Of a DNA stretch of 64,000 nucleotides, positions 49,138-62,151 are shown in pieces. The stretch is from an uncultured SAR86 cluster bacterium. Its GTDB lineage: Bacteria; Pseudomonadota; Gammaproteobacteria; Magnimaribacterales; D2472. The position numbers and the translations under genes are program-made. The notes beneath the pieces are model-generated. The model ran no database searches and had not been told where the DNA came from. It was given only the letters and a program-made list of their open reading frames with translations. The DNA lies in assembly GCA_902623535.1 (NCBI GenBank), contig CACNUA010000003.1, positions 52,518 through 116,517 of the forward strand. Reading direction: 5' to 3'. Each line of letters begins with the position of its first letter. The stretch's first letter is position 1.

Positions 49138-49551
49138 TTACTGCTTTATGTCAAAGAAACCTTGTCGAGTCACGCACTTATCAATTTGCACGTCTTCTAA
49201 CTCTTCAAGTTCATACTTAAGTAAACGAAGCTCATTTACTTGAGGATCAACGCCCTCGGATTGAAATCCAAGAAAGTTTTTACCAGTGGTTGGATTGTTG
49301 GTGCCCATACCAAGCTGGAAATAATAAGTACTTCTATCGGCTTCTTCGATAGCACCTTCAGCAACTTCGACAAGAAGTTCTTTCATTTTATTTCTTTGTG
49401 CTGAAAGCTCAGTACAATCTAAATCTCTGTAATTAGGAAACTCTGGATGTAAGGTTCCACCCTGAGTAGTTTGGTAAACTCCTTGAGGAATAGCGCAAGA
49501 AAACATTGCAGCGCTAATGATAAGAATTCCGAATGACTTAAAATTTTTCAT
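49138..49551 (-). CDS. Small lipoprotein of unknown function
   Basis: From the ATG at 49551 the protein has 137 residues and a lipoprotein signal ('KSFGILIISAAMFSCAIPQG'). The ORF track adds twelve residues without need. The mature part has a helical segment with 'DCTELSAQRNKMKELLVEVAEGA' and a C-terminal helix. The family is not recognised. It lies downstream of the giant surface-protein gene on the same strand, but the 100-base spacer leaves co-transcription open. Confidence 0.75.
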   Translation of the reverse strand: MKNFKSFGILIISAAMFSCAIPQGVYQTTQGGTLHPEFPNYRDLDCTELSAQRNKMKELLVEVAEGAIEEADRSTYYFQLGMGTNNPTTGKNFLGFQSEGVDPQVNELRLLKYELEELEDVQIDKCVTRQGFFDIKQ

Positions 49552-49654
49552 ACTTGATCCCTGGATTAAGTGACATTTTATCACCATAAGCCTAAATTTG
49601 CTTATATTTTACATATTTTTGCCTAAGTGCCAATATTTTATGTATTTTTATTGA

Positions 49655-52600
49655 TTAGTCCAGCAAATAAATACCTTCAGCCATATAAAAATCATTTGCC
49701 CCAGCAGTACCTGTATCGCCTGATTTATACAAATTCACATTAATTCGTCCCCCACTCTCATCGGGTGAGGTATCTCCATATAAAGCACCTGCCACCGAAG
49801 CCCCACCGAGCCAATCGTTTTGCAGGCTGGTGGTCGAGTTTCCACTATATGTATGATCGGTGCCAGTAATAGCTACAGTGAATGAAGTAAAGCCAGCATT
49901 GGAAACAATTGCGTTCTTATCATCAAAGTTTGTAAAATCAAGTGATCCTGAATAACCACTAGACCCCCAAGTAAATGAGGCTGCAACATCCGCAGTGGTG
50001 GTGTATTTATGAACGTCATAGTTGGTGCCCGTCTGATTGTAACGATAGGCCACATTCATCACTGCTGCGCCACTCATCGAAGCAGCTCCTGCAGTTGGGA
50101 TCTCACTTTGCGCTAAAGTTTCTCCGCCCACCCAAGTACCTAAGTGAACAGAAGCATTTTGAGCCCCAGTATTAGGCGAGATATCCACTGAACTCATGGC
50201 CCAAAACCCCCACGTCGAATAAGCAGTATCAGGCATCGAATCATTGCCACCTGAATGAAATAAATCGGAATCCTCAGTATCTAGGGTATTGTAAGAAACC
50301 ATCACTCCAGCTAAATTATTGGAACCCCCTGAAGTGCCATCAATTTGAGCACCGTCGTCTTGAATTTCTGCACCAAAAACTTCACTGGAAAGATAGGCTG
50401 ATTTTGCTTCATCGTTAGTCGCATCACCGAATTTAAGGGTCATGGAACCTGTATCAACAGTCGTCCAATTAGCTGTGTAATTGTTAGCAGGCGCCACACC
50501 GATGGTCATGGGTGCCACCACTTGCACGTCATCGTTGGTGGTATCAAAAGTGAAGCTTGCCAGAGTACTGCTTGAACGCATGGAAGCAAGTTGTGAATTA
50601 CCTGAACCGCTGACATCAAACTCTAAAATACCACTGAAAAATCCACTGTAAGTTGAAGCGCTGGAGGTATAGAAACTACTTTTTCTAAAGTTAGCGATCG
50701 TTTGTGAAGGATAAGTTCCACTAGGATTTGCTCTCGTAATGTTCTGTTGGATGATTGCAGCATTAAAAGAGCCTGTACTGAAGGTATCGGTATTAGAATT
50801 GTAATTGACGCTTAGACTCATGTTGCCTGATTTGTATGGATCGGAAGAGGTGACCATGGCTGCACGAGGATGATCAGTTCCAGCATCAGCCCAAAAACAA
50901 CCACTGTCATTAGAACTTGCGCACTCAATAGACGAAGTTCCGTAATTAATGCCCAAACCATCATTATCTGCATTGGTCGCACCTTGATAGGACCAGTAAT
51001 GATAACCATCCATGCCCAAGCCAGTATCTCCTGCTGAATATCGAGTCGTGTCATTCTTTCGGTAATCGACGTTAGAGATAACCACGTTCAGCAAACTTTC
51101 TTGATCATCACGGGTGGTGCTGCCCGAGGCTCCGTCGTAAGAGTCTTTGAAGGAAATCTGTGCCCAAAGACCGACACCCACACCGCTTGTATTAATTACT
51201 TGCCACCAAAGAGATTGTCCCTCTGGAATATAATTTGCGCAATTAACAAACCTGTTGGTACATAGGGTCAAATTACTGTCTAAAGCATAAGACGCCCACT
51301 CGTAAGCTAACCAGTAATTTGAGGAGCAGCTATTTTGGTTAGTGGCTGCACAATAGTCCACACCCACATCACCATAAGACCATACATTGGTTGGAATAAA
51401 ATTAGGATAAAAGTAATCGTTGGTCGTTCCGGAGGCTGCGAAATACTCGATTGGGATGATCGCAAAAGCAAAGATCTGCTTTGGACCTAAGGCGTAGGTG
51501 GTGTAGTAGTCTGAAAGCATGGTGTCGGTATACACACGCCCTGCTAGGGTGACTTGGTCCTGAAAAAGATTATAGCTGGATGTAGTAGCAGTTCCGGTCC
51601 CCAAACCGGTAACCCAATTCATGATGTCTCGGTTCTCACTTCCACCATCACTGGAAGATCCGAGTTGAAATGAATTTACATCAGCAACCCCAACAAATGT
51701 TCCGGCTGAACCTGTTCTTCCTGGATCACAAACAAAAAATACTGAGTTACCACTACCGCCGCCATTAGCCAATGAATTACATACCGAAGGAATGTTTATA
51801 CCACCACTCGCATTAGTGTAGTATTTTTTTCCGCTAAGACCGCTGTAATCCAATGTGGTGCCTGATACTAAGCTTAAATCAGCAAACGTATGTAAGACTC
51901 GTCCCTCATATCCATTTACTCCTGCTAGACCATGACCAGTTCCTAACCATGTATTAAATAGCGGTTGTATTTGAGTCATAGTAGTACTGCCGCCACAGCA
52001 ACCATTAGTGTGCTCCCAGATGACATGATACAAAACACCACCTCCATCCAGCCAAGCTTCTAAGTCTTCGAAATTATTGTCCTCGTATGTGCCCCATTGC
52101 TGCGTGCCTATGTGTTGGCCAATAATTATCCCAACATCATCAATATCGATACTAGCACCCGTTAAGCAATCGGAAAGGGAACCACTAAGACAACTTTGAA
52201 CGCTGTAACCTCTTTGATCAAGATAATAAGGCCAAGTTCCACTAGTAGAGCTAGAAACACTATTAACACCACCAAACCAACTTGAATTTCCCAAAATTAC
52301 AGCATGATTTCTTTGCCCATTGTCAGATTGATAACTTATACTTTGAGCTGCCTTGTCGGTGGCCATAAACCAAAAGTTACCGCCGCTCAACCGTCCTGCG
52401 GTAATGACTTCTGAATTACTAATGGTAGTGGTGACACTGGTGCCTAGTAAGCTTTTGTATTTAGCATCAAGGGCAACGCTGTTGGGAGCAAAGGCAAACT
52501 GTCCAGCACCTGTGGTATCAATAGGGAAAAAATAACGCCAGTTAAGCAAGGTGCCTCCAGCAATTTCCACTGGCACTGAATCATTATTTGTATTGTCTAC

Positions 52601-55600
52601 GGTAGTAATGATTGTTGAAGCGGTTTCTCCAATTTGTTCTAGATAATAAGCAGGTAAACTCGATCCTGAAGATCCTCGCGTTGCGGTTGCACTAAAGCCA
52701 GTGCGGGATGCTGAATTGTAAGCTGCTGAATAACGCAAGACTGCTGAATTAAGCTCTTCAACATTCCCTACATTGACGGTAAAGGTATCGGTCACTGAGG
52801 TGCCGCCTACGGTAGCGGTTAAAGTAAGGGCATAACTTTGAGTTGTTTCATAGTCTAGCGTTGCGTTGGTGGTCACATTTCCTGATGAATCAACACTAAA
52901 GTTACTGCTGCCCGTTCCACTAAGCGTATAAGTAATGCTGTCACTGTCGGGATTATTAATACTGGAGCTAGCCACAGCTGTGCCAGAACTAGATGATTCT
53001 GCTAACGCGGCCCCACTGTTAGCAAGCGTGGTTGCTAGAGTATTAATGGTAATGTCATTAATGCTTATGTTAATCGTTTCAGTATCGGTGTTGGTGCCAT
53101 CGGTCACGGTAACAGTAAGTGAGTATGAAGAGGTAGTTTCATAATCCATCGCTGCTGCCGTGGTGATCACCCCGCTGCTGGAAATGGCAAACTTATCGCT
53201 GCCAGTACCTGATAGTGTATAGGTCACTGAAGCACTGTCTTGTTGCGTTAAAGTTGAGGTTGCGACTTGGGTTCCGGTGCTTACTCCTTCGTTAATGGCA
53301 GGTGAGGTACTTGAGAGTGCTAAGGCAAATTCATCCACGTCACTGACATTAATGGTGATGGTTTCTTGCGTTGAATTGGTTCCATCGCTGGCGGTTAAAG
53401 TAATCGTATAGGAAGTAGTTGTTTCATAATCTAAGCTACTGGCCACAGTAACATTACCGTTGGCATCAACGCTAAAGTTGTCGCTGCCGGTGCCACTTAA
53501 AGAGTAGCTAATGGAACTCGATTCTGGATCACTCGCTGAGCTGGTCGCAACGGTAGTTCCGGTGGCTGCATCTTCTGCAACACTTGAGGCTGCTAAGGTT
53601 GTGGTAACGGTTGGCGCTTCATTGATATCCCCCACATTGATGGTGAGGGTTTCAGAAACGGTATTATCGCCATCGGATGCAGTTAAAGTAATTTCGTATG
53701 CAGTTGCGGTTTCATAATCCAGTGCACTCGCTAGAGTCACCGTACCATCAGAACTGACTGAAAAATTTTCACTGCCGGTACCAGATAGACTATAGGTGAT
53801 TGCTCCTGCTTCAGGGTCGGTTACTGAACTGGTAGCAATCGTAGTGCCAGTGGCCGTATTTTCTTGGAAGGCATTGAAAGCAACGGTCGCACTTAGAGAT
53901 GGCGCTTCATTGACGTCGGCAACACTCACAGTAATGACTTCAGTAGAAGCATAAGTGCCATCATCGACAACGACGGTTAGTTCATAAGAGGTTGTCGTTT
54001 CATAATCCAAAGCACTGGCAAGAGTAATGTTACCGCTGGTATCAATACTAAAGTTATCGCTCCCAGTTCCGCTGAGTGTATAAGTCACCGCACTACCCTC
54101 AGGATCGGCGGCATTAACCGATGCAATGGCAGCCCCAACAGCAGAATTTTCAGCAAACGAAGCAGCACTTAAAGTTGCTGCAATGGTGGCAGGCTCATCA
54201 TCATTAATTACATTAATAGTAATCTCTTCGGTGGTGATATTGGTACCATCAGATACTTCCAATGTCATGACTATAGTTGAGTTAGTCTCAAAATCTAAAT
54301 TGCCAGTAAGGGTTACCTCGCCAGTTTCAGAGACCGTCATCAGTTCACTGCCGGCACCACTTAGTGAATAAGTTAAAGCATTGCCTTCTGGATCGGTGGC
54401 ACTAAAGGTTGCCACCACGGTTCCTGCTGGAACAGTTTCAGAGACATTGACCTGATTAGCAACGAGATCTGCACTGATGGCAGCCTCACTAATCGTGTTG
54501 ACCGGTTCAACAGAAAGCTCCGCCGCTTCATCCACATCGGCGACGTTTAAAGCTAGGGCAACTTCTTGGACATCACCGTTATCGCTGGTAAAAGTCACGG
54601 TCAGTTCAACCGCTTCTTGGCTTTCATGATCTAAAGCTTCGGTAATTTCTAAGGAGTTGGTTTCTTCGTTGTAAGTAAAGGCCTCACTGCCCTCACCTTC
54701 AACAGTTACGGTGTAATTTTGGTCGCCGGGGTTAACCACAGCGAATGAGACTAAACTAATCTCAGTCGTGTTTTCATCCACAATTTCAACCACTTCAGAA
54801 GTTTCCACTTCAAAAATGGGTGCGACTTCTGCAGTCGTTTCTTGGGTGGTTTGCGCAACTTCTTCGGTGACTTCCTCGGTGGAGCTCTCATCCACATCAA
54901 CTAAATCAACTTCGGTTTCAACTTCAAACGCATCAGCCGTGCCCAGTTCATCAGGCGCAACATCAGAGGAAACATCCGAGACTCCTGAGCTATCTAAAAG
55001 TCCCTCATCAACTTCAACTTCAGTTGTTCCGCTATCACCTCCAGTATCAGCAACTTCAGTGGTGACTTCAGTATCCGATTCATTCTCTTGCGCGACTTCC
55101 GTGGTGGGTTCATCGCTTGATGAATCCGAAGATGCGTCATCGGATGAACTGTCACTAGCCACTGAATCATCAGCAGAAGATTCATCACTTGAGGATTCTT
55201 CAGAAGAAGACTCATCATTGGATGAATCATCAGAGCTTGAATCGTCAGAGCTTTCTTCGCTTGAGGATTCCTCTGAGCTAGATTCATCTGAACTTTCTTC
55301 GCTGGATTCTTCAGAACTTGATTCATCTGAGCTTTCTTCTGAAGAAGACTCATCTGAACTTTCTTCACTAGAAGATTCATCACTGGAAGATTCTTCTTCG
55401 GCTGGCTCTTCTTCGCTAGCTTCAAGTTCATCTTGAACGGCTTCGAGACTTTCTTCAGTTACCGGTTCAGGTTCGGAGGGTTCAGAGTCGGCTGATTCCA
55501 CTGTCACAGAAAAGCCTGGCTCAGTAATGGTCGTAATAAAATCACTGCCGCACTGATCGCCAAACGTATCTAAGTCGACACAGTTGGGTGTGACTGTCAT

Positions 55601-56065
55601 CTCCTCGCCATACAAGAAGGTTGCATTCACTTGCGAACCATCAGTCTGGACAATGCCAATTCCCCCTCTGATACCTACGGTGGCGGAGTTAGTTCTTATG
55701 AGCGCGGGCTGTTTTTTAGTAACCTTACCGCCAACAATTCTTAGAAGACCTCGTGCGGTTACTTCTAATGATCCTTCAGCCGTTTCAGGATTATAAATAA
55801 ATCGATCAAGGACCACACTTGAGTTCGGCCCAACTGAAAAGGCGGTACCATCGAGGAGCAACATTTGAGCTTTTCCAATTTCATCGGTTTCAATGGTGTG
55901 ATTTTGAATGATTTGGTAGCCGGCCTCAACTAACTTGCGTTCTTGTTCAAGCGTTAAATCAGTTGTATTACGATTAACTGCAGCAGCCACACCAATTTGA
56001 TCTTGAGCAAAGATGAATGATGAAAAGGTTACTAAAAATAAAAAATGTAATCTAATTGTCTGCAA
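49655..56065 (-). CDS. Giant FecR-cadherin surface protein with TbpB-like C-terminal barrel
   Basis: At 2136 residues this is by far the largest gene here. Order of parts: signal peptide (1-20, '...FIFAQDQ'); FecR-like domain (about 35-160, 'KAQMLLLDGTAFSVGPNSSVVLDRF', 'RTNSATVGIRGG'); Ser/Asp/Glu-rich stretch (about 205-320); about seven cadherin-like repeats of 90 residues (about 440-1105) sharing 'YTLSGTGSDNFSID..G..TLASALDYET'; a Rossmann-like segment (about 1255-1400) with 'EDLEAWLDGGGVLYHVIW'; a Tyr/Trp/Cys-rich part; and a final barrel (about 1959-2136) with 'GASVAGALYGDTSPDESGG', like TbpB-type lipoprotein barrels. Such barrels mark cargo of Slam/type XI secretion, and a Slam-like protein is encoded just upstream. 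The start is TTG, backed by an AGGGAG ribosome site. Adhesion or binding at the cell surface is the likely role. Confidence 0.85.
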   Translation of the reverse strand: MQTIRLHFLFLVTFSSFIFAQDQIGVAAAVNRNTTDLTLEQERKLVEAGYQIIQNHTIETDEIGKAQMLLLDGTAFSVGPNSSVVLDRFIYNPETAEGSLEVTARGLLRIVGGKVTKKQPALIRTNSATVGIRGGIGIVQTDGSQVNATFLYGEEMTVTPNCVDLDTFGDQCGSDFITTITEPGFSVTVESADSEPSEPEPVTEESLEAVQDELEASEEEPAEEESSSDESSSEESSDESSSEESSDESSSEESSEESSDESSSEESSSEESSDDSSSDDSSNDESSSEESSSDESSADDSVASDSSSDDASSDSSSDEPTTEVAQENESDTEVTTEVADTGGDSGTTEVEVDEGLLDSSGVSDVSSDVAPDELGTADAFEVETEVDLVDVDESSTEEVTEEVAQTTQETTAEVAPIFEVETSEVVEIVDENTTEISLVSFAVVNPGDQNYTVTVEGEGSEAFTYNEETNSLEITEALDHESQEAVELTVTFTSDNGDVQEVALALNVADVDEAAELSVEPVNTISEAAISADLVANQVNVSETVPAGTVVATFSATDPEGNALTYSLSGAGSELMTVSETGEVTLTGNLDFETNSTIVMTLEVSDGTNITTEEITINVINDDEPATIAATLSAASFAENSAVGAAIASVNAADPEGSAVTYTLSGTGSDNFSIDTSGNITLASALDYETTTSYELTVVVDDGTYASTEVITVSVADVNEAPSLSATVAFNAFQENTATGTTIATSSVTDPEAGAITYSLSGTGSENFSVSSDGTVTLASALDYETATAYEITLTASDGDNTVSETLTINVGDINEAPTVTTTLAASSVAEDAATGTTVATSSASDPESSSISYSLSGTGSDNFSVDANGNVTVASSLDYETTTSYTITLTASDGTNSTQETITINVSDVDEFALALSSTSPAINEGVSTGTQVATSTLTQQDSASVTYTLSGTGSDKFAISSSGVITTAAAMDYETTSSYSLTVTVTDGTNTDTETINISINDITINTLATTLANSGAALAESSSSGTAVASSSINNPDSDSITYTLSGTGSSNFSVDSSGNVTTNATLDYETTQSYALTLTATVGGTSVTDTFTVNVGNVEELNSAVLRYSAAYNSASRTGFSATATRGSSGSSLPAYYLEQIGETASTIITTVDNTNNDSVPVEIAGGTLLNWRYFFPIDTTGAGQFAFAPNSVALDAKYKSLLGTSVTTTISNSEVITAGRLSGGNFWFMATDKAAQSISYQSDNGQRNHAVILGNSSWFGGVNSVSSSTSGTWPYYLDQRGYSVQSCLSGSLSDCLTGASIDIDDVGIIIGQHIGTQQWGTYEDNNFEDLEAWLDGGGVLYHVIWEHTNGCCGGSTTMTQIQPLFNTWLGTGHGLAGVNGYEGRVLHTFADLSLVSGTTLDYSGLSGKKYYTNASGGINIPSVCNSLANGGGSGNSVFFVCDPGRTGSAGTFVGVADVNSFQLGSSSDGGSENRDIMNWVTGLGTGTATTSSYNLFQDQVTLAGRVYTDTMLSDYYTTYALGPKQIFAFAIIPIEYFAASGTTNDYFYPNFIPTNVWSYGDVGVDYCAATNQNSCSSNYWLAYEWASYALDSNLTLCTNRFVNCANYIPEGQSLWWQVINTSGVGVGLWAQISFKDSYDGASGSTTRDDQESLLNVVISNVDYRKNDTTRYSAGDTGLGMDGYHYWSYQGATNADNDGLGINYGTSSIECASSNDSGCFWADAGTDHPRAAMVTSSDPYKSGNMSLSVNYNSNTDTFSTGSFNAAIIQQNITRANPSGTYPSQTIANFRKSSFYTSSASTYSGFFSGILEFDVSGSGNSQLASMRSSSTLASFTFDTTNDDVQVVAPMTIGVAPANNYTANWTTVDTGSMTLKFGDATNDEAKSAYLSSEVFGAEIQDDGAQIDGTSGGSNNLAGVMVSYNTLDTEDSDLFHSGGNDSMPDTAYSTWGFWAMSSVDISPNTGAQNASVHLGTWVGGETLAQSEIPTAGAASMSGAAVMNVAYRYNQTGTNYDVHKYTTTADVAASFTWGSSGYSGSLDFTNFDDKNAIVSNAGFTSFTVAITGTDHTYSGNSTTSLQNDWLGGASVAGALYGDTSPDESGGRINVNLYKSGDTGTAGANDFYMAEGIYLLD
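52751..54748 (-). repeat. About seven cadherin-like protein repeats
   Basis: Residues 440-1105 of the giant protein repeat every 85-95 residues. Each unit has 'T..ATS...DPE...ITY.LSG.GS..F.V...G.VT....LDYET...Y.LT....DGTN...E..TINV.D..E'. The conserved DPE, LDYET and DGTN acidic spots are calcium-site-like, as in cadherin or VCBS repeats. The fourth, fifth and seventh repeats are closest; the first is diverged. The DNA itself is not identical between units. Confidence 0.85.
55106..55453 (-). repeat. Ser/Asp/Glu-rich low-complexity stretch
   Basis: Residues 205-320 of the giant protein are almost only Ser, Glu and Asp, in units such as ESSDESS and SEESS. The composition is highly acidic, so it should be an extended, flexible spacer between the FecR domain and the repeats. 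DNA repeats of GAA/GAT/TCT type could vary in number by slippage. Confidence 0.85.
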
Positions 56066-56132
56066 AAATTAATTCTCCCTTAAAATTTTTTAAGGCTTAG
56101 TTATATGAATTCAGCACATTCTATTAAAAAAA

Positions 56133-56145
56133 TGACAATTTGTCA
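56133..56145. promoter_or_regulatory. Operator-like palindrome before the giant gene
   Basis: TGACAATTTGTCA lies in the 85-base spacer between the Slam-like gene and the giant gene. It differs in only two bases from the palindrome at 57528-57540 beside the TetR gene, giving TGACAATnnGTCA in both. Confidence 0.6.
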
Positions 56146-56150
56146 CTTTT

Positions 56151-57509
56151 TTATTTAAAACATTGATAATTTAATGTTGCTGAATAGTTATTAGCACTTC
56201 GTTTGTAAATATTGATGGTGCTTCTTGAGTCACTGAAAACAGCCCCAAGATTAGTTGACCAACACAAACCAATGGATCGAGTCAGATTAATTCTTAAGGT
56301 CTCAAGACGATCAACACGTTTACCAAAGAGTGGAAAGTCAGCGTCGTGCGCCTTATCTGCATAACTGTACTTGGATGAGAGCTGCCAACCAGTTTCCAGC
56401 GGTTTTGAATAGGTCAATTCAAAACCTAAATTTTCAAAAAATTCATAATCAACCCCACCACGGAAATTTTCTATGATGGCTTTGTAGCCAACAATTCCTT
56501 GACCACCTGGGATGGAAAAAGTTTGACCGAAGGCAAAGCCATTAATGCGTCCACTTTTCATGGGCGAGGTAGCAAAAGATTTTTCATCTCGGTAATAAGA
56601 TAACAAAATTGACGAACCATTGGATAATAGGCCTGAGTAATCAAGGCTAATGCGCCCACTTCTGAGGATTTCCTCTCGATTAAGAACCACCCTGACTAAA
56701 TTAATACTTGGAGAAAAAACAGCATCTTCGATATCTAGAAAACTTAGTAAATCGCAACATCCGTGTTGGGTTACCCTGAAGAAGTTTTCATCCAAATTAA
56801 AATTACGTCTAACTGAGATCACATTGCTTTGCACATTGAACTGTTTGTAAGTATTAAAAACATCACTTCCATAGCTAAAGAAATATTGAATGTTGTCACC
56901 TCTTGGATGATTAAGGTCTTGATCAAGGCTTAGGGAATAATTAAGCAAGGTGCTTTTATCGGATGCCCTTTTTGAGTCATCATCCACATCTAATAAAAAA
57001 TCACCAATCTCAATAAAGTCTGCATTGATACCAGAATTACCGTTAGTGGTGTGCTTAAAGCCCATGCTTATAGTTTGTTGAAACTTGATGGGCTCCTGAG
57101 CTTCTTCAATGGCCTCTAAAAATTGATTTACTCGATTGAGAACTTCCGGTGGTGGATTAAATTCTTTAACGCTTTTTAGATAAGTATTTGCTAATGCAAA
57201 AGCTCCTAACCTGAAGTACAAAACCCCTAGCTCAAGCCTGATTCGGGGAAGTTCATTATCGTAGATTAGCATCTGCTCAAACACCCCAATAGCGGCCTCA
57301 AGATCACCTACTAAAATGGATAAATTGGCATATTCAAACAAGAGTGTTAGGTTTGTGGGATCGGCAAACATCTTTTTAAAAACTGCATCCCTCTGCTCTT
57401 GAACTTTTGCCAATGCAGCAGGATCAGTAATCGCCGGCGCCACGTTTTGTGCCTGAAGGGAATCGATGTATAAGGTTGATGCAATTAAAAGCGCAATAAT
57501 TTTTTTCAA
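56151..57509 (-). CDS. Slam-like (type XI secretion) outer-membrane protein: TPR plus beta-barrel
   Basis: After a signal peptide ('KKIIALLIASTLYIDSLQAQ') come TPR-like helices (about residues 35-140, 'FEYANLSILVGDLEAAIGVFEQML', 'RLELGVLYFRLGAFALANTYL'). Some 300 residues of beta-barrel strands follow, ending in an aromatic C-terminus ('YSATLNYQCF'). This two-part plan is that of Slam/DUF560 proteins, which move lipoproteins and TbpB-type barrel proteins to the cell surface. The next gene encodes a protein with such a barrel. I choose the TTG at 57509 because it puts the lysines of the signal peptide first; the ORF track starts at another TTG, at 57533, inside an operator palindrome. The DUF560 call rests on architecture and context more than on single motifs. 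Confidence 0.7.
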   Translation of the reverse strand: MKKIIALLIASTLYIDSLQAQNVAPAITDPAALAKVQEQRDAVFKKMFADPTNLTLLFEYANLSILVGDLEAAIGVFEQMLIYDNELPRIRLELGVLYFRLGAFALANTYLKSVKEFNPPPEVLNRVNQFLEAIEEAQEPIKFQQTISMGFKHTTNGNSGINADFIEIGDFLLDVDDDSKRASDKSTLLNYSLSLDQDLNHPRGDNIQYFFSYGSDVFNTYKQFNVQSNVISVRRNFNLDENFFRVTQHGCCDLLSFLDIEDAVFSPSINLVRVVLNREEILRSGRISLDYSGLLSNGSSILLSYYRDEKSFATSPMKSGRINGFAFGQTFSIPGGQGIVGYKAIIENFRGGVDYEFFENLGFELTYSKPLETGWQLSSKYSYADKAHDADFPLFGKRVDRLETLRINLTRSIGLCWSTNLGAVFSDSRSTINIYKRSANNYSATLNYQCFK

Positions 57510-57523
57510 GATATATGATTCCC

Positions 57524-57544
57524 AAAATGACAATGCGTCATTTT
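57524..57544. promoter_or_regulatory. Operator palindrome in the Slam/TetR divergent promoter
   Basis: AAAATGAC-AATGC-GTCATTTT is a perfect eight-base inverted repeat with a five-base spacer. It lies between the Slam-like gene and the TetR gene. Its core TGACAATGCGTCA recurs nearly unchanged before the giant gene. Size and symmetry suit a TetR dimer. Confidence 0.68.
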
Positions 57545-57585
57545 ACTACTAAGATGCGAGTTTTTAAATTATTATTTGTATCATA

Positions 57586-58224
57586 ATGGCAAAAAAAATA
57601 AAGAAGTCAGATCTCACCAAAGCTAGGCTAATGCAGGCTATGTGGGAGCTTATCTTAGAAGGTGATAAAGTTATTTCGGTTAAGACCATCACTGACAAGG
57701 CAGAAACAGCATATGGATCATTTTATCGCTATTACAAAAATTTAGATCAAGTTCATAAGGAATTAATTGAACATCGAGCCACCATTCTAGCTGAATTTGC
57801 TGAAACAGAATTATTAAATATTGAATCGCCATTATTGCGCTTATATGTGGGTTATTACTTTGCCATGGGAATTTTCCAGCAAGAAAATGTTTATCAGTGG
57901 CTAAGGCAGCACCCTAATTTTATGAATCAAACATGGGCAAACTTCACACATGCAACGGCTGAGGCATTTTTAAAAGAGTCCCTTGAGGTGAAAGATGTTC
58001 CTGAATTTACGCAGGAAAATTATGAACACTACCTTCGTGTGAGAGAATACATTTATTGGACCTATCAGCATATTATTCGACAACTCAATGAGGGCAAAAA
58101 ACTGGATGTCATCTACTTAGAATTTATGGATGCAGTGAATTTGTTTAATTTACCTCCTCAGATTCATCAAAAACTAACCAAAGAAGCAGTTACTCTAGCA
58201 GTCAAATATACCCTGCCAACATAG
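57586..58224 (+). CDS. TetR-family transcriptional regulator
   Basis: The 212-residue protein has an N-terminal TetR helix-turn-helix ('VKTITDKAETAYGSFYRYYKNLDQVHKELI') and an all-helical ligand domain rich in aromatic residues. The ligand is not predictable. It stands head-to-head with the Slam-like gene, and a palindrome lies in the shared promoter. The CHASE2 cyclase gene follows 17 bases after it, so both the secretion genes and the cyclase operon may be under its control. Confidence 0.9.
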   Translation: MAKKIKKSDLTKARLMQAMWELILEGDKVISVKTITDKAETAYGSFYRYYKNLDQVHKELIEHRATILAEFAETELLNIESPLLRLYVGYYFAMGIFQQENVYQWLRQHPNFMNQTWANFTHATAEAFLKESLEVKDVPEFTQENYEHYLRVREYIYWTYQHIIRQLNEGKKLDVIYLEFMDAVNLFNLPPQIHQKLTKEAVTLAVKYTLPT

Positions 58225-58241
58225 CTTAAACCTATCCATTC

Positions 58242-60431
58242 ATGCAATTTTCAATTAAACAGATTATTAAAGTAGGACTTTATGGATTGGCTGTCTTGGT
58301 TAGCTTGCTGCCGATTCTTAATCCCTTTAGCATCTTTACGAATTTACAAAACTATTCGTTTGATACCTTTCAGCAACTTTTTCCGAGACAAGTTTATGAA
58401 GACGATCCGGTGGTAATTGTTGATATTGATGATCGCTCTTTAGAGCTAGCAGGACAATGGCCTTGGTCACGAACCACACTTGCAAGATTAACGGATCAAA
58501 CTTACACAGCAGCTGCTTTGGGTTTTGATATCGTCTTCGCTGAGCCTGATCGAACTAACCCCCGTAATCTTATTACTCAGTTTCCTAATAATCTTGCCCT
58601 GAAGCAACAGGTAGAATTACTGCCAGATAATGATGAGATATTTGCTCGAGCTATAGCCAATCATGGCACGGTGGTACTGGGTGTTGCGGTTAATAACTCT
58701 GAAGAAAATTTACCCCTGACTAAGCCAAAATTTGGCCTGGTAACTCAAGGAGATAATCCTAACCAGTTCTTACCTGCCTACACCGGATTAAAAGCAAATA
58801 TTTCCTTACTTGAGGAAAATGCAGCTGGACTTGGAACGATGAGCATTGGTAATAATGATTCGGTGGTGAGAAGCTTACCGACTTTTGATCGTGTTGGAGA
58901 AACCGTGATCCCAAGTTTAGGACTTGAGCTTGCTCGAGTTGCCATTGGTGCTTCAACTTTTCAAATTAAAGCTTCCAATGCATCTAGCGAAGAGGCCTTT
59001 GGCGCCCAAACGGGAATTAATAACATCAAACTTGGACCACTAACCATGCCCACTACACCAGATGGACAATCATGGATTTACTTTGCACCCTCTGCAGACT
59101 TAGTAACTGTATCAGCCTGGGATGTTTTATCTGGATCAATTGATCCTGATTTTTTTTCTGGGAAAGTAGTTTTGGTGGGGACTTCTGCTGCGGGTTTATT
59201 TGATCTTAGATCTACACCAATTGAAAAAAATATTCCTGGTGTCACAATAATTGGTCAATTTGTCCAACAAATTTTTGCTAATGAGTTCTTACAACGTCCC
59301 GATTGGTTGTTTGGTGCTGAATTTATTGCTGGATTAGTTTTATCTTTATTAATAACTTTCATGATTCAAGCTCTTGGCCCGATCGGAGGCTTAACGGTTC
59401 TGGGTGTGGGCTCAGGAGGCATTATTGGTGGCAGCTGGTATTTTTTTAAATCCAAACTATTTTTAGTCGATCCCATTTCACCATTAGTTATAATCCTAAC
59501 TGTCTATGTAGCTGTAACATTCTTTAACTTTCTCTTCACAGAACTCGAAAGAAGTCGAGTGCGCGGTGCTTTTGCACAGTACATGTCACCGGAAATGGTG
59601 AACCGTTTGGCTGAATCCAATGAGTCCTTGAAACTTGGAGGTGAGCGCAAGGATATGACCATGCTATTTTCAGATATTCGTGGTTTTACTAAAATCTCTG
59701 AACAGTATAAACAAGATCCTGAAGCACTCACAGACCTTATTAATCGCCTACTCACAACTTTATCCAATGAAATTTTAGAATGTGAGGGAACTATTGATAA
59801 ATACATGGGAGACTGCATTATGGCTTTCTGGAATGCGCCTGCCTCTCAAGAAAATCATGCTGAGCTAGCTATCAAAGCGGGTGTGAAAATGCGCAAGGCG
59901 CTCAAAGAACTCAATGACGAATTTATTGGTGAGGGAAAGCTTGCTATGGAGATTGGCATTGGTATCAATACAGGTGATTGCATTGTAGGGAATATGGGTT
60001 CCGATAAACGCTTTGACTATACAGTATTGGGCGATGCAGTTAATTTAGCAGCTCGACTTGAGGGCCAATCAGGAACGTATGGTGTCAACATTGTTTTAGG
60101 TGAGGAAACAGCTAAACAAATGCCGGATTTCAAGCTGATTGAATTAGATCTAATAGCGGTAAAAGGTAAAAGTGAGCCGGTTAAAATTTATACCTATTTA
60201 AGTGATTTACATATTGATGAGGCTGCTAAATTAAAAGAACCTCAAAACGCAATGCTGGCAAGTTACAGAGAGCAAAATTGGGATGCAGCAGAACGCTATT
60301 TATTGATGGCAAAAGTGCAGGCTCCTGAATTAGAAAAATACTATCAATACTTTCAAGAAAGGATAAATCAATTTAGAATACACCCCCCAAGTCATGATTG
60401 GAGTGGTGTAAATGTTGCAACAACTAAATAA
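58242..60431 (+). CDS. CHASE2-domain adenylate cyclase (class III)
   Basis: The 729 residues form a membrane sensor enzyme that makes cAMP. After one N-terminal membrane helix comes a periplasmic CHASE2 domain (about 35-330, 'DDPVVIVDIDDRSLELAGQWPWSRTTLARL', 'GKVVLVGTSAAGLFDLRSTP'). Three membrane helices follow (about 350-430), then a class III cyclase domain (about 465-650). Catalytic residues are visible: metal aspartates in 'LFSDIRGFT' and 'KYMGDCIMAFW', the adenine-selecting Lys in 'DKYMGD', and the transition-state Asn and Arg in 'GDAVNLAARLEG'. This pattern favours cAMP over cGMP. A helical tail ends the protein. It overlaps the DUF481 gene by 20 bases. Confidence 0.94.
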   Translation: MQFSIKQIIKVGLYGLAVLVSLLPILNPFSIFTNLQNYSFDTFQQLFPRQVYEDDPVVIVDIDDRSLELAGQWPWSRTTLARLTDQTYTAAALGFDIVFAEPDRTNPRNLITQFPNNLALKQQVELLPDNDEIFARAIANHGTVVLGVAVNNSEENLPLTKPKFGLVTQGDNPNQFLPAYTGLKANISLLEENAAGLGTMSIGNNDSVVRSLPTFDRVGETVIPSLGLELARVAIGASTFQIKASNASSEEAFGAQTGINNIKLGPLTMPTTPDGQSWIYFAPSADLVTVSAWDVLSGSIDPDFFSGKVVLVGTSAAGLFDLRSTPIEKNIPGVTIIGQFVQQIFANEFLQRPDWLFGAEFIAGLVLSLLITFMIQALGPIGGLTVLGVGSGGIIGGSWYFFKSKLFLVDPISPLVIILTVYVAVTFFNFLFTELERSRVRGAFAQYMSPEMVNRLAESNESLKLGGERKDMTMLFSDIRGFTKISEQYKQDPEALTDLINRLLTTLSNEILECEGTIDKYMGDCIMAFWNAPASQENHAELAIKAGVKMRKALKELNDEFIGEGKLAMEIGIGINTGDCIVGNMGSDKRFDYTVLGDAVNLAARLEGQSGTYGVNIVLGEETAKQMPDFKLIELDLIAVKGKSEPVKIYTYLSDLHIDEAAKLKEPQNAMLASYREQNWDAAERYLLMAKVQAPELEKYYQYFQERINQFRIHPPSHDWSGVNVATTK

Positions 60432-61158
60432 GGCCTTTGTTATAGCTATCGCGACGATCGGCATGCAATCCTATGCCTCTGCAATTATTAATATTGAGGA
60501 CTTACGTCAAGAAGGTGAAGTAGGATTATTTCAATCAATATCTGGTAGCTTTGATGCTTCAAGAGGAAACCGTGATAGAGACTTTTATACATTTACTTAC
60601 AGAATTGATAACAATTCAGAAGCCGTTGATTCTTTCTTAGTACTCAGTCAGTCAGAGAGAAAATATGTTGGTACTGTTATCGATGAATCAAATTTTTTTC
60701 ATGGGCGCTTAATCTTTAAAAATAAATCTAAGTTGCATTATGAGTTATTTGCACAACGCTCAGAAAATCCTTTCAGAAACTATAGAAAAAGAGAGGTCAC
60801 TGGTTTGGGCTTTAGATACCTAATTAATGATCATGCAAGATTAGGTATGGCATTTATAAATGAAGATGAAGAGGATCTAAATATGGTCAATACCAAAACT
60901 GATCGTTTAAATATCTATTTTCATGATGATTTTGAAGTGGGTGAGAATATTTATTTTAATACTACCATCTATGTTCAGCCCTCTATTGACGACTTCAGCG
61001 ATGATGTTAAATCAAGTGCTATTTTTGCTCTTGATTTTGAAGTTAATGAACAAGTTACGATTTCATTTCAATACTCAAGGTTTAACGATAATGCACCACC
61101 GCTTAATGCTGATAAAATGGATGAAAGCATTAGTACAAAATTTTCATGGAATTTCTAG
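60412..61158 (+). CDS. DUF481/YdiY-like outer-membrane barrel protein
   Basis: A signal peptide ('FVIAIATIGMQSYASA') precedes about 225 residues of alternating strands ending in Phe ('STKFSWNF'), which is typical of outer-membrane barrels. 'FYTFTYRIDNNSEAVDSFLVLSQSERKYVGTVIDESNFFHGRL' and 'REVTGLGFRYLINDHARLGMAF' resemble DUF481 proteins. The role is unknown. Translation is coupled to the cyclase gene by a 20-base overlap, so the two likely act in one envelope-sensing unit. Confidence 0.75.
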   Translation: MLQQLNKAFVIAIATIGMQSYASAIINIEDLRQEGEVGLFQSISGSFDASRGNRDRDFYTFTYRIDNNSEAVDSFLVLSQSERKYVGTVIDESNFFHGRLIFKNKSKLHYELFAQRSENPFRNYRKREVTGLGFRYLINDHARLGMAFINEDEEDLNMVNTKTDRLNIYFHDDFEVGENIYFNTTIYVQPSIDDFSDDVKSSAIFALDFEVNEQVTISFQYSRFNDNAPPLNADKMDESISTKFSWNF

Positions 61159-61167
61159 GAGAACAAA

Positions 61168-62151
61168 ATGTTGGATAGTTTTTTAAACGTAGTCAATCAG
61201 GTCTGGAACGATGGTCTGTATGGCATTGGAATAACAGAACTTATTGTATCTATCGTTATTCTTTTTAGTGGATTTATTGTGCGAGGTGTATTCATAGCAC
61301 GTGTCTTTAAATGGCTTGAAAAGCTTTCTGACCAGACAGAATCTGAAGCCGACGATGCTCTTTTAGAAACGCTGAAAAAACCTTTGGGCTATCTTCCTAT
61401 CACAATTGCTTTGTATGTGATTACTTTGTATCTACCTTTAAGTGGCACTCCTGAATTAGTCGCACAAAACATAGTGAAGGCCGCCATTGCTTTTACAATT
61501 TTTAGCACCTTATCCAACTCTGTCCAGCCTATTTTTGGCATGTTTTCAGCAACTAGTCTCTTAACAGCGTCCATGACTATGTGGCTAGAAAGAGCAGCTA
61601 GGGTATTGATTTGGGTTATAGGTATTGGGGTAATACTTGATATCTTTGGCATTCAAATCGGGCCACTTGTAGCTGGTTTAGGTTTATTTTCAGTTGCTGT
61701 AGCTTTAGGAGCTCAAGATTTATTTAAAAATTTAATTGCGGGAATTCTTATTATAGGTGAAAACCGATTCCAACCCGGCGATAGAATTGAAATCGAAGGT
61801 GAACTTCACGGCGTTGTTGAGAACATTGGCTTCAGATCTACACTGGTAAGACTTTTTAGTACCGCACCTATGTTGGTCCCAAATAAAGATCTAGCTGATT
61901 TTAAAGTTATTAATCATGGTGCCATGCAATATCGAAGAATTAGCTGGACCATTAATTTGATTTATTCAACTACTCAAGATCAACTTGCTAAAATTTGCGA
62001 GGAGATTGAAACCTTTATTAAAGGCTCAGATCAGTTTGCTGAAAATCCTCGACAGGACTCCTTTGTGAAAACTGATGAATTTGGAGCTAGTTCAATTGAT
62101 ATACGAATACTCTGTTATACCGAGCCTCTAGACCTTACTGACAGCACCTGA
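61168..62151 (+). CDS. MscS-family mechanosensitive channel, C-terminally cut
   Basis: Four or five membrane segments lead to the pore helix 'AGLGLFSVAVALGAQDLFKNLIAGILII', then the beta domain ('FQPGDRIEIEGELHGVVENIGFRSTLVRLFSTAPMLVPNKDLADF'). The protein stops at residue 327 after 'SSIDIRILCYTEP', just where relatives continue with a further helical segment of roughly 40 residues. The final residues LDLTDST look foreign. Together with the equally shortened neighbour this points to a joint at about 62115-62150. An AGGAG ribosome site precedes the ATG. Confidence 0.85.
   Translation: MLDSFLNVVNQVWNDGLYGIGITELIVSIVILFSGFIVRGVFIARVFKWLEKLSDQTESEADDALLETLKKPLGYLPITIALYVITLYLPLSGTPELVAQNIVKAAIAFTIFSTLSNSVQPIFGMFSATSLLTASMTMWLERAARVLIWVIGIGVILDIFGIQIGPLVAGLGLFSVAVALGAQDLFKNLIAGILIIGENRFQPGDRIEIEGELHGVVENIGFRSTLVRLFSTAPMLVPNKDLADFKVINHGAMQYRRISWTINLIYSTTQDQLAKICEEIETFIKGSDQFAENPRQDSFVKTDEFGASSIDIRILCYTEPLDLTDST

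Follow-up and report, generated by a model that had tools for sequence, protein, structure and literature searches.

In autoregulated repressors of the TetR/tetA type, the TetR-family regulator is encoded divergently from its target, and the two genes share a palindromic operator over the core promoter. Bacteria of the SAR86 cluster are abundant in surface oceans. Their cultivation is recent (PMC11582366), and so almost nothing is known of how they regulate their genes. A fatty-acid desaturase is among the targets of the regulators DesT and MadR (PMC4273635, PMC8872791). A Burkholderia biofilm operon encodes a FecR-domain protein together with a CHASE2 sensor and a regulator (PMC5192318), and the cargo of type 11 secretion systems has been surveyed for cluster 1 and the Rhodobacterales cluster 3, in an account that makes no mention of SAR86, TetR or cadherin (PMC12282271). 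Here we describe a SAR86 locus in which a palindrome is very probably the operator of the adjacent TetR, an autorepressor of a regulon for Slam-like export and giant proteins.

The window, which is the whole stretch of 64,000 nucleotides that was analysed, covers positions 52518-116517 of contig C3 of a 71%-complete genome of 1.2 Mb (1,197,454 bases; G000). Its named relatives are SAR86 cluster MAGs and one Gammaproteobacteria MAG (TMED104). The plus strand encodes a TetR-family regulator of 212 aa (tetR, 57586-58224), followed by tightly packed CHASE2-cyclase, DUF481 and MscS genes (58242-62151) that are probably co-transcribed with it. On the minus strand are the genes for a Slam-like outer-membrane protein of 452 aa with TPR and a predicted 14-stranded barrel (slam, 56151-57509), a giant surface protein of 2136 aa with signal peptide, FecR domain, acidic/Ser-rich linker and cadherin repeats (49655-56065), and, 3' of the giant gene, a small putative lipoprotein (49138-49551, re-started at an internal ATG). 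TTG is the apparent start codon of both the giant (56065) and slam (57509) genes.

The Pfam TetR_N model, for the N-terminal helix-turn-helix, scored 13.4 bits on the single TetR sequence, below the cut-off of 24. A profile of the family matched 81 PDB chains (best E 2.7e-11), and among the matches listed most were TetR regulators. The AlphaFold2 model was composed entirely of helices in a two-domain fold (pLDDT 90); its closest folds were the TetR regulators RolR and FadR, and matches by fold and profile included FadR, SaFadR and DesT. By profile and predicted fold, the regulator belongs to the TetR family. The NCBIfam FabR model gave 13.4 bits for a cut-off of 151, which does not place the protein in FabR, and neither the fold nor the profile matches fixed a ligand class. 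The Slam-like protein had TPR matches and a model with 14 long strands (pLDDT 69), and 14-strand barrels were among its top folds. SlipAM (PF04575) matched 2 of 13 slam orthologues below threshold (E 0.0017 or weaker) and did not match the window protein. Because TPR and 14 strands are joined only by sub-threshold Pfam matches of some orthologues, "Slam-like" is the safe word, and the predicted structure warrants it. A TbpB-type barrel suspected by eye at the C-terminus of the giant protein had no Pfam match. To judge from linkage, the giant protein may be the cargo of the Slam-like protein.

The palindromes TGACAATTTGTCA (56133-56145) and TGACAATGCGTCA (57528-57540) are identical at 11 of 13 positions. 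The first is the core of operator 2 (site 2) in the slam/giant spacer, before the giant gene, where it is flanked by an A-tract and a T-tract (56126-56152); the edge of this element overlaps the slam stop codon. The second is the core of operator 1 (site 1, AAAATGACAATGCGTCATTTT) in the divergent tetR/slam spacer, where it sits in a perfect AAAATGAC/GTCATTTT repeat (57524-57544). An earlier note on this DNA had reported the pair, one copy of it inside the perfect repeat, and had placed the copies exactly at two promoters; both observations were confirmed. Exact matches to its motif, TGACAATNNGTCA, numbered 2 in the window versus 0.07 expected, a count reached by 0 of 100 shuffles, and in a scan of the 1,197,454-base genome, one of the checks proposed in the earlier note, these two sites were the only exact matches. 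The bare skeleton TGAC-N5-GTCA occurred genome-wide at chance (13 versus 9 for the reversed control) and is uninformative by itself, and the window was not enriched in the motif when two mismatches were allowed. Since the loose patterns are at chance, the signal consists of the exact motif and its placement.

The TetR proteins of G001, G002 and G004 are 92%, 92% and 69% identical to the window protein, and both sites are kept in these genomes with variation in the central bases (TGACAATACGTCA, TGACAATGAGTCA, TGACAAAATGTCA, TGACAAGTTGTCA). TetR of the sister genus (g9) is mostly 34-41% identical. There slam and the giant gene are adjacent or overlapping and the second spacer is therefore absent, and the tetR/slam spacer retains one site, for example TGACAATTTATCA or TGACAAAATATCA. 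Over the two SAR86 genera, TGAY-N5-RTCA was present in 16 of 16 spacers in which a TetR gene with the helix AYG[ST]FYRY[FY] adjoins slam, so the motif held up in the comparison of relatives that the earlier note had proposed. Two tetR genes of this helix type lack the site (G006 and G058), and both are separated from slam. The site is retained in the slam spacer of G058 and in the slam/giant spacer of G006, where the tetR promoter has lost it. In G006 (L033, L070), tetR lies apart from slam and the giant gene, and the slam promoter keeps only a half-like TGACCCCGAATCA.

The predicted giant-gene promoter (GTGACA-17-TAGAAT, 10/12; 56118-56146, minus strand) has its -35 inside operator 2, and the predicted tetR promoter (ATGACA-17-TAAGAT; 57527-57555, plus strand) has its -35 inside operator 1. 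The predicted slam promoter (TTTAAA-17-TAAAAT; 57540-57568, minus strand) has its -10/start region where operator 1 begins. Site 1 overlaps the tetR -35 and abuts the slam -10 (TAAAAT). Such promoter-like matches were no commoner at the locus than in shuffles. The giant-gene arrangement, by contrast, was conserved in 11 of 11 copies: at every giant-gene start found in the genus (five genomes, different contigs, after unrelated genes) a site lies over the -35, and RTGAYA is exactly 17 bp from the -10. Second or tandem giant-gene paralogues (L074, which is C23 of the own genome, L078, L079 and L081) are nearly identical in their FecR domains and carry this promoter site as well.

A blind profile trained solely on sites of the sister genus was scanned against genomes of the window's own genus. 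In the own genome the two giant-gene sites headed the ranking (E 0.006 and 0.011), the giant-gene sites were likewise top-ranked in G001 and G002, and no match was better than E 0.4 in G005, which has no TetR. The profile did not single out the own tetR/slam site (8.3 bits, E about 7), and this site therefore rests on its own conservation rather than on that test. When the sister genus was scanned with the reverse profile, built from own-genus sites, it picked out a second giant gene in tandem, a gene for a fatty-acid desaturase and a small HTH_25 gene. The top match of the sister-genus profile in G006, TGATACTTTGTCA (L097:1501; C2:124218), precedes an apparent TonB-dependent receptor gene.

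The desaturase gene (PF00487) is preceded by a site in both genera, some 210-240 nt ahead of the likely start; in the own genome this conserved site lies beside a tRNA on contig C2 (L072:1227). It was found in 7 of 8 TetR-bearing genomes versus 1 of 13 without detected TetR (Fisher p 5e-4, with kinship ignored among related genomes and the comparison confounded with genus). The exceptions were G021, which has TetR and no site, and G028, an 88%-complete MAG with the site and no TetR found. A third candidate operator in the window, GTGATAAAATGTCAC (core 49571-49583, minus strand), lies just upstream of the small lipoprotein gene, and G000, G001, G002 and G004 all retain it. As a profile match it is weak (E 0.4). 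Another copy, TGACTTTTTGTCA, precedes a phasin/apolipoprotein-like gene (the set L073:1218, L071:1237 and L030:19972); at the equivalent place in the sister genus, beside exonuclease I, a site precedes an HTH_25 gene. The regulon therefore probably extends beyond two promoters to the giant paralogues, the desaturase, the lipoprotein and further members, as predicted from the distribution of sites. The TetR regulon claimed by the earlier note is supported by these computations, but its two promoters were too few and its motif was too narrow, being better written as about AAAnTGAYAnnnTRTCAnTTT.

The arrangement, with sites on -35 hexamers and in the gap separating divergent promoters, fits an autoregulated repressor. 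A TetR dimer would bind the extended palindrome. Bound to site 1, the dimer would lie across the tetR -35, giving autorepression, and across the slam start region, and the autorepression would probably extend to the whole tetR-CHASE2 cyclase-DUF481-MscS run, since the gene spacing suggests a shared autoregulated promoter. At site 2 and its equivalents before every giant paralogue the dimer would cover the giant-gene -35, and the copies before the desaturase and lipoprotein genes would serve as further operators. TetR would be released by a ligand, which may be a lipid or an acyl compound, and the Slam-like exporter would then be switched on jointly with the giant protein, its presumed cargo. 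The sign of control is not readable from sequence, and the distance of the desaturase site from its gene is greater than usual for simple repression, both of which leave some room for TetR as an activator or dual regulator. We consider this improbable, as at both the giant-gene promoter and the tetR promoter the site overlaps the -35 hexamer. A position over the -35 is the usual one for repressors among TetR regulators.

The assignment of the sites to this TetR draws on co-occurrence and on paralogues. The tetR, slam, giant and CHASE2 genes are together present or together absent; the CHASE2 gene, tried as a marker for an empty site in TetR-less genomes, was missing there too. Two genomes (G050 and G102) have two tetR genes apiece. 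Their ordinary TetR (helix AYGxFYRYF) has TGACAATTTATCA adjoining, and the other TetR (GYGTFYEHF), whose gene adjoins a second copy of slam, is accompanied by CCGACATTTTATCGG and TTGATATTTTATCGG. Within one genome, the change of helix from AYGxFYRY to GYGTFYEH is thus paralleled by a change of the adjacent palindrome from TGACAnnnTATCA to CCGACATTTTATCGG. In family f3, TetRs with GYGTFYNHF adjoin giant genes that bear another palindrome, ATGAGATAAAAA-N5-TTTTTATCTTCAT. The operators thus change with the recognition helix. Of the computational evidence, we consider this the strongest in favour of direct binding, and the paired change between paralogues would represent a natural specificity switch. 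In this family (L048:10560-10800, L050, L051 and L046), distant tetR genes and giant genes are divergently oriented, with the long palindrome ATGArGATAAAAA-N5-TTTTTATCTTCAT, and in genus g14 (L047 and L049) tandem palindromes TGACATTATGTCA/TGACATTTCGTCA lie upstream of a distant tetR.

A real regulon bound by a regulator other than this TetR would account for the desaturase sites without detected TetR in G028 and G003 and for the loss of the site at the G006 tetR gene itself. This explanation is decidedly improbable: both G028 (88%) and G003 (59%) are incomplete genomes, and elsewhere the site tracks the presence of TetR and the helix and operator change together in the paralogues of one genome.

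The palindromes might also be hairpin terminators of the rho-independent type, or RNA elements, with site 2 ending the slam transcripts. Site 2 comes directly after the slam stop codon with A and T tracts on its flanks, and own-genus copies of it fold at -11 to -15 kcal/mol, which no shuffle equals. A stable hairpin was absent in the one sister-genus site that was folded (-1.9), however, and the sister-genus sites are asymmetric, with the TGAC/RTCA letters themselves kept and not pairing alone. Site 1 lies between divergent promoters, the copies before giant paralogues follow unrelated genes at a fixed 17-bp spacer to the -10, and neither site was listed by a simple terminator scan. With a stable hairpin in the own genus but not in the sister-genus site that was folded, we rejected termination as a sufficient explanation and regard it as very improbable, while the own-genus hairpin after the slam stop codon would permit a secondary terminator role for site 2. 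That the conserved letters are a mere -35 box (TGACA resembling TTGACA) of similar promoters is scarcely credible and was likewise rejected as sufficient. The left arm does give 5 of 6 -35 letters at the promoters of tetR and the giant genes. But TRTCA, the right arm, is conserved to the same degree, as are the A/T tracts on the flanks, and these letters fall within the spacer, for which a promoter requires no particular sequence. Moreover, the site at slam falls in the start region instead of the -35, and the sites co-vary with the TetR helix.

With TetR as the predicted autorepressor, it is reasonable, though unproven, to guess at a lipid as the signal, given the candidate desaturase target and the matches in fold with FadR, SaFadR and DesT. 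On the wider and doubtful conjecture, a TetR responsive to membrane lipids would couple the desaturation of fatty acids to the display, through the Slam-like exporter, of giant FecR/cadherin surface proteins, with a CHASE2 cyclase encoded in the same autoregulated operon. If true, an abundant bacterium of the ocean would switch its surface coat according to the state of its membrane. With an operator, a regulator and a target list, control of the giant surface proteins becomes testable in vitro using synthetic DNA and one purified protein.

The literature searched contained no account of this regulon, and the words TetR, cadherin, desaturase and secretion are all absent from the SAR86 isolate paper (PMC11582366). 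The circuit is of an ordinary type, and this particular regulon appears to be undescribed. As in the TetR/tetA type, regulator and target are divergent with a common palindromic operator over core promoter elements; unlike that type, the circuit would act on genes for a Slam-like exporter, for giant surface proteins and for a desaturase, and it has several operators dispersed in the genome. The regulator shares the predicted TetR fold with the fatty-acid regulators FabR, DesT, FadR (Bacillus, Sulfolobus) and MadR, and a desaturase candidate target with DesT and MadR, but it is not orthologous to them and its main candidate targets are surface-protein genes. The locus resembles the type 11 secretion system (Slam, DUF560/PF04575) in having a TPR and 14-strand outer-membrane protein beside a large, presumably exported protein and a small lipoprotein gene; it differs in that PF04575 matches are only sub-threshold and the giant C-terminus is without a Pfam match. 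As in the Burkholderia biofilm operon, a FecR-domain protein is found alongside CHASE2 and a regulator, but there the CHASE2 protein is the histidine kinase of a two-component system, whereas the SAR86 locus combines TetR with a CHASE2 nucleotide cyclase.
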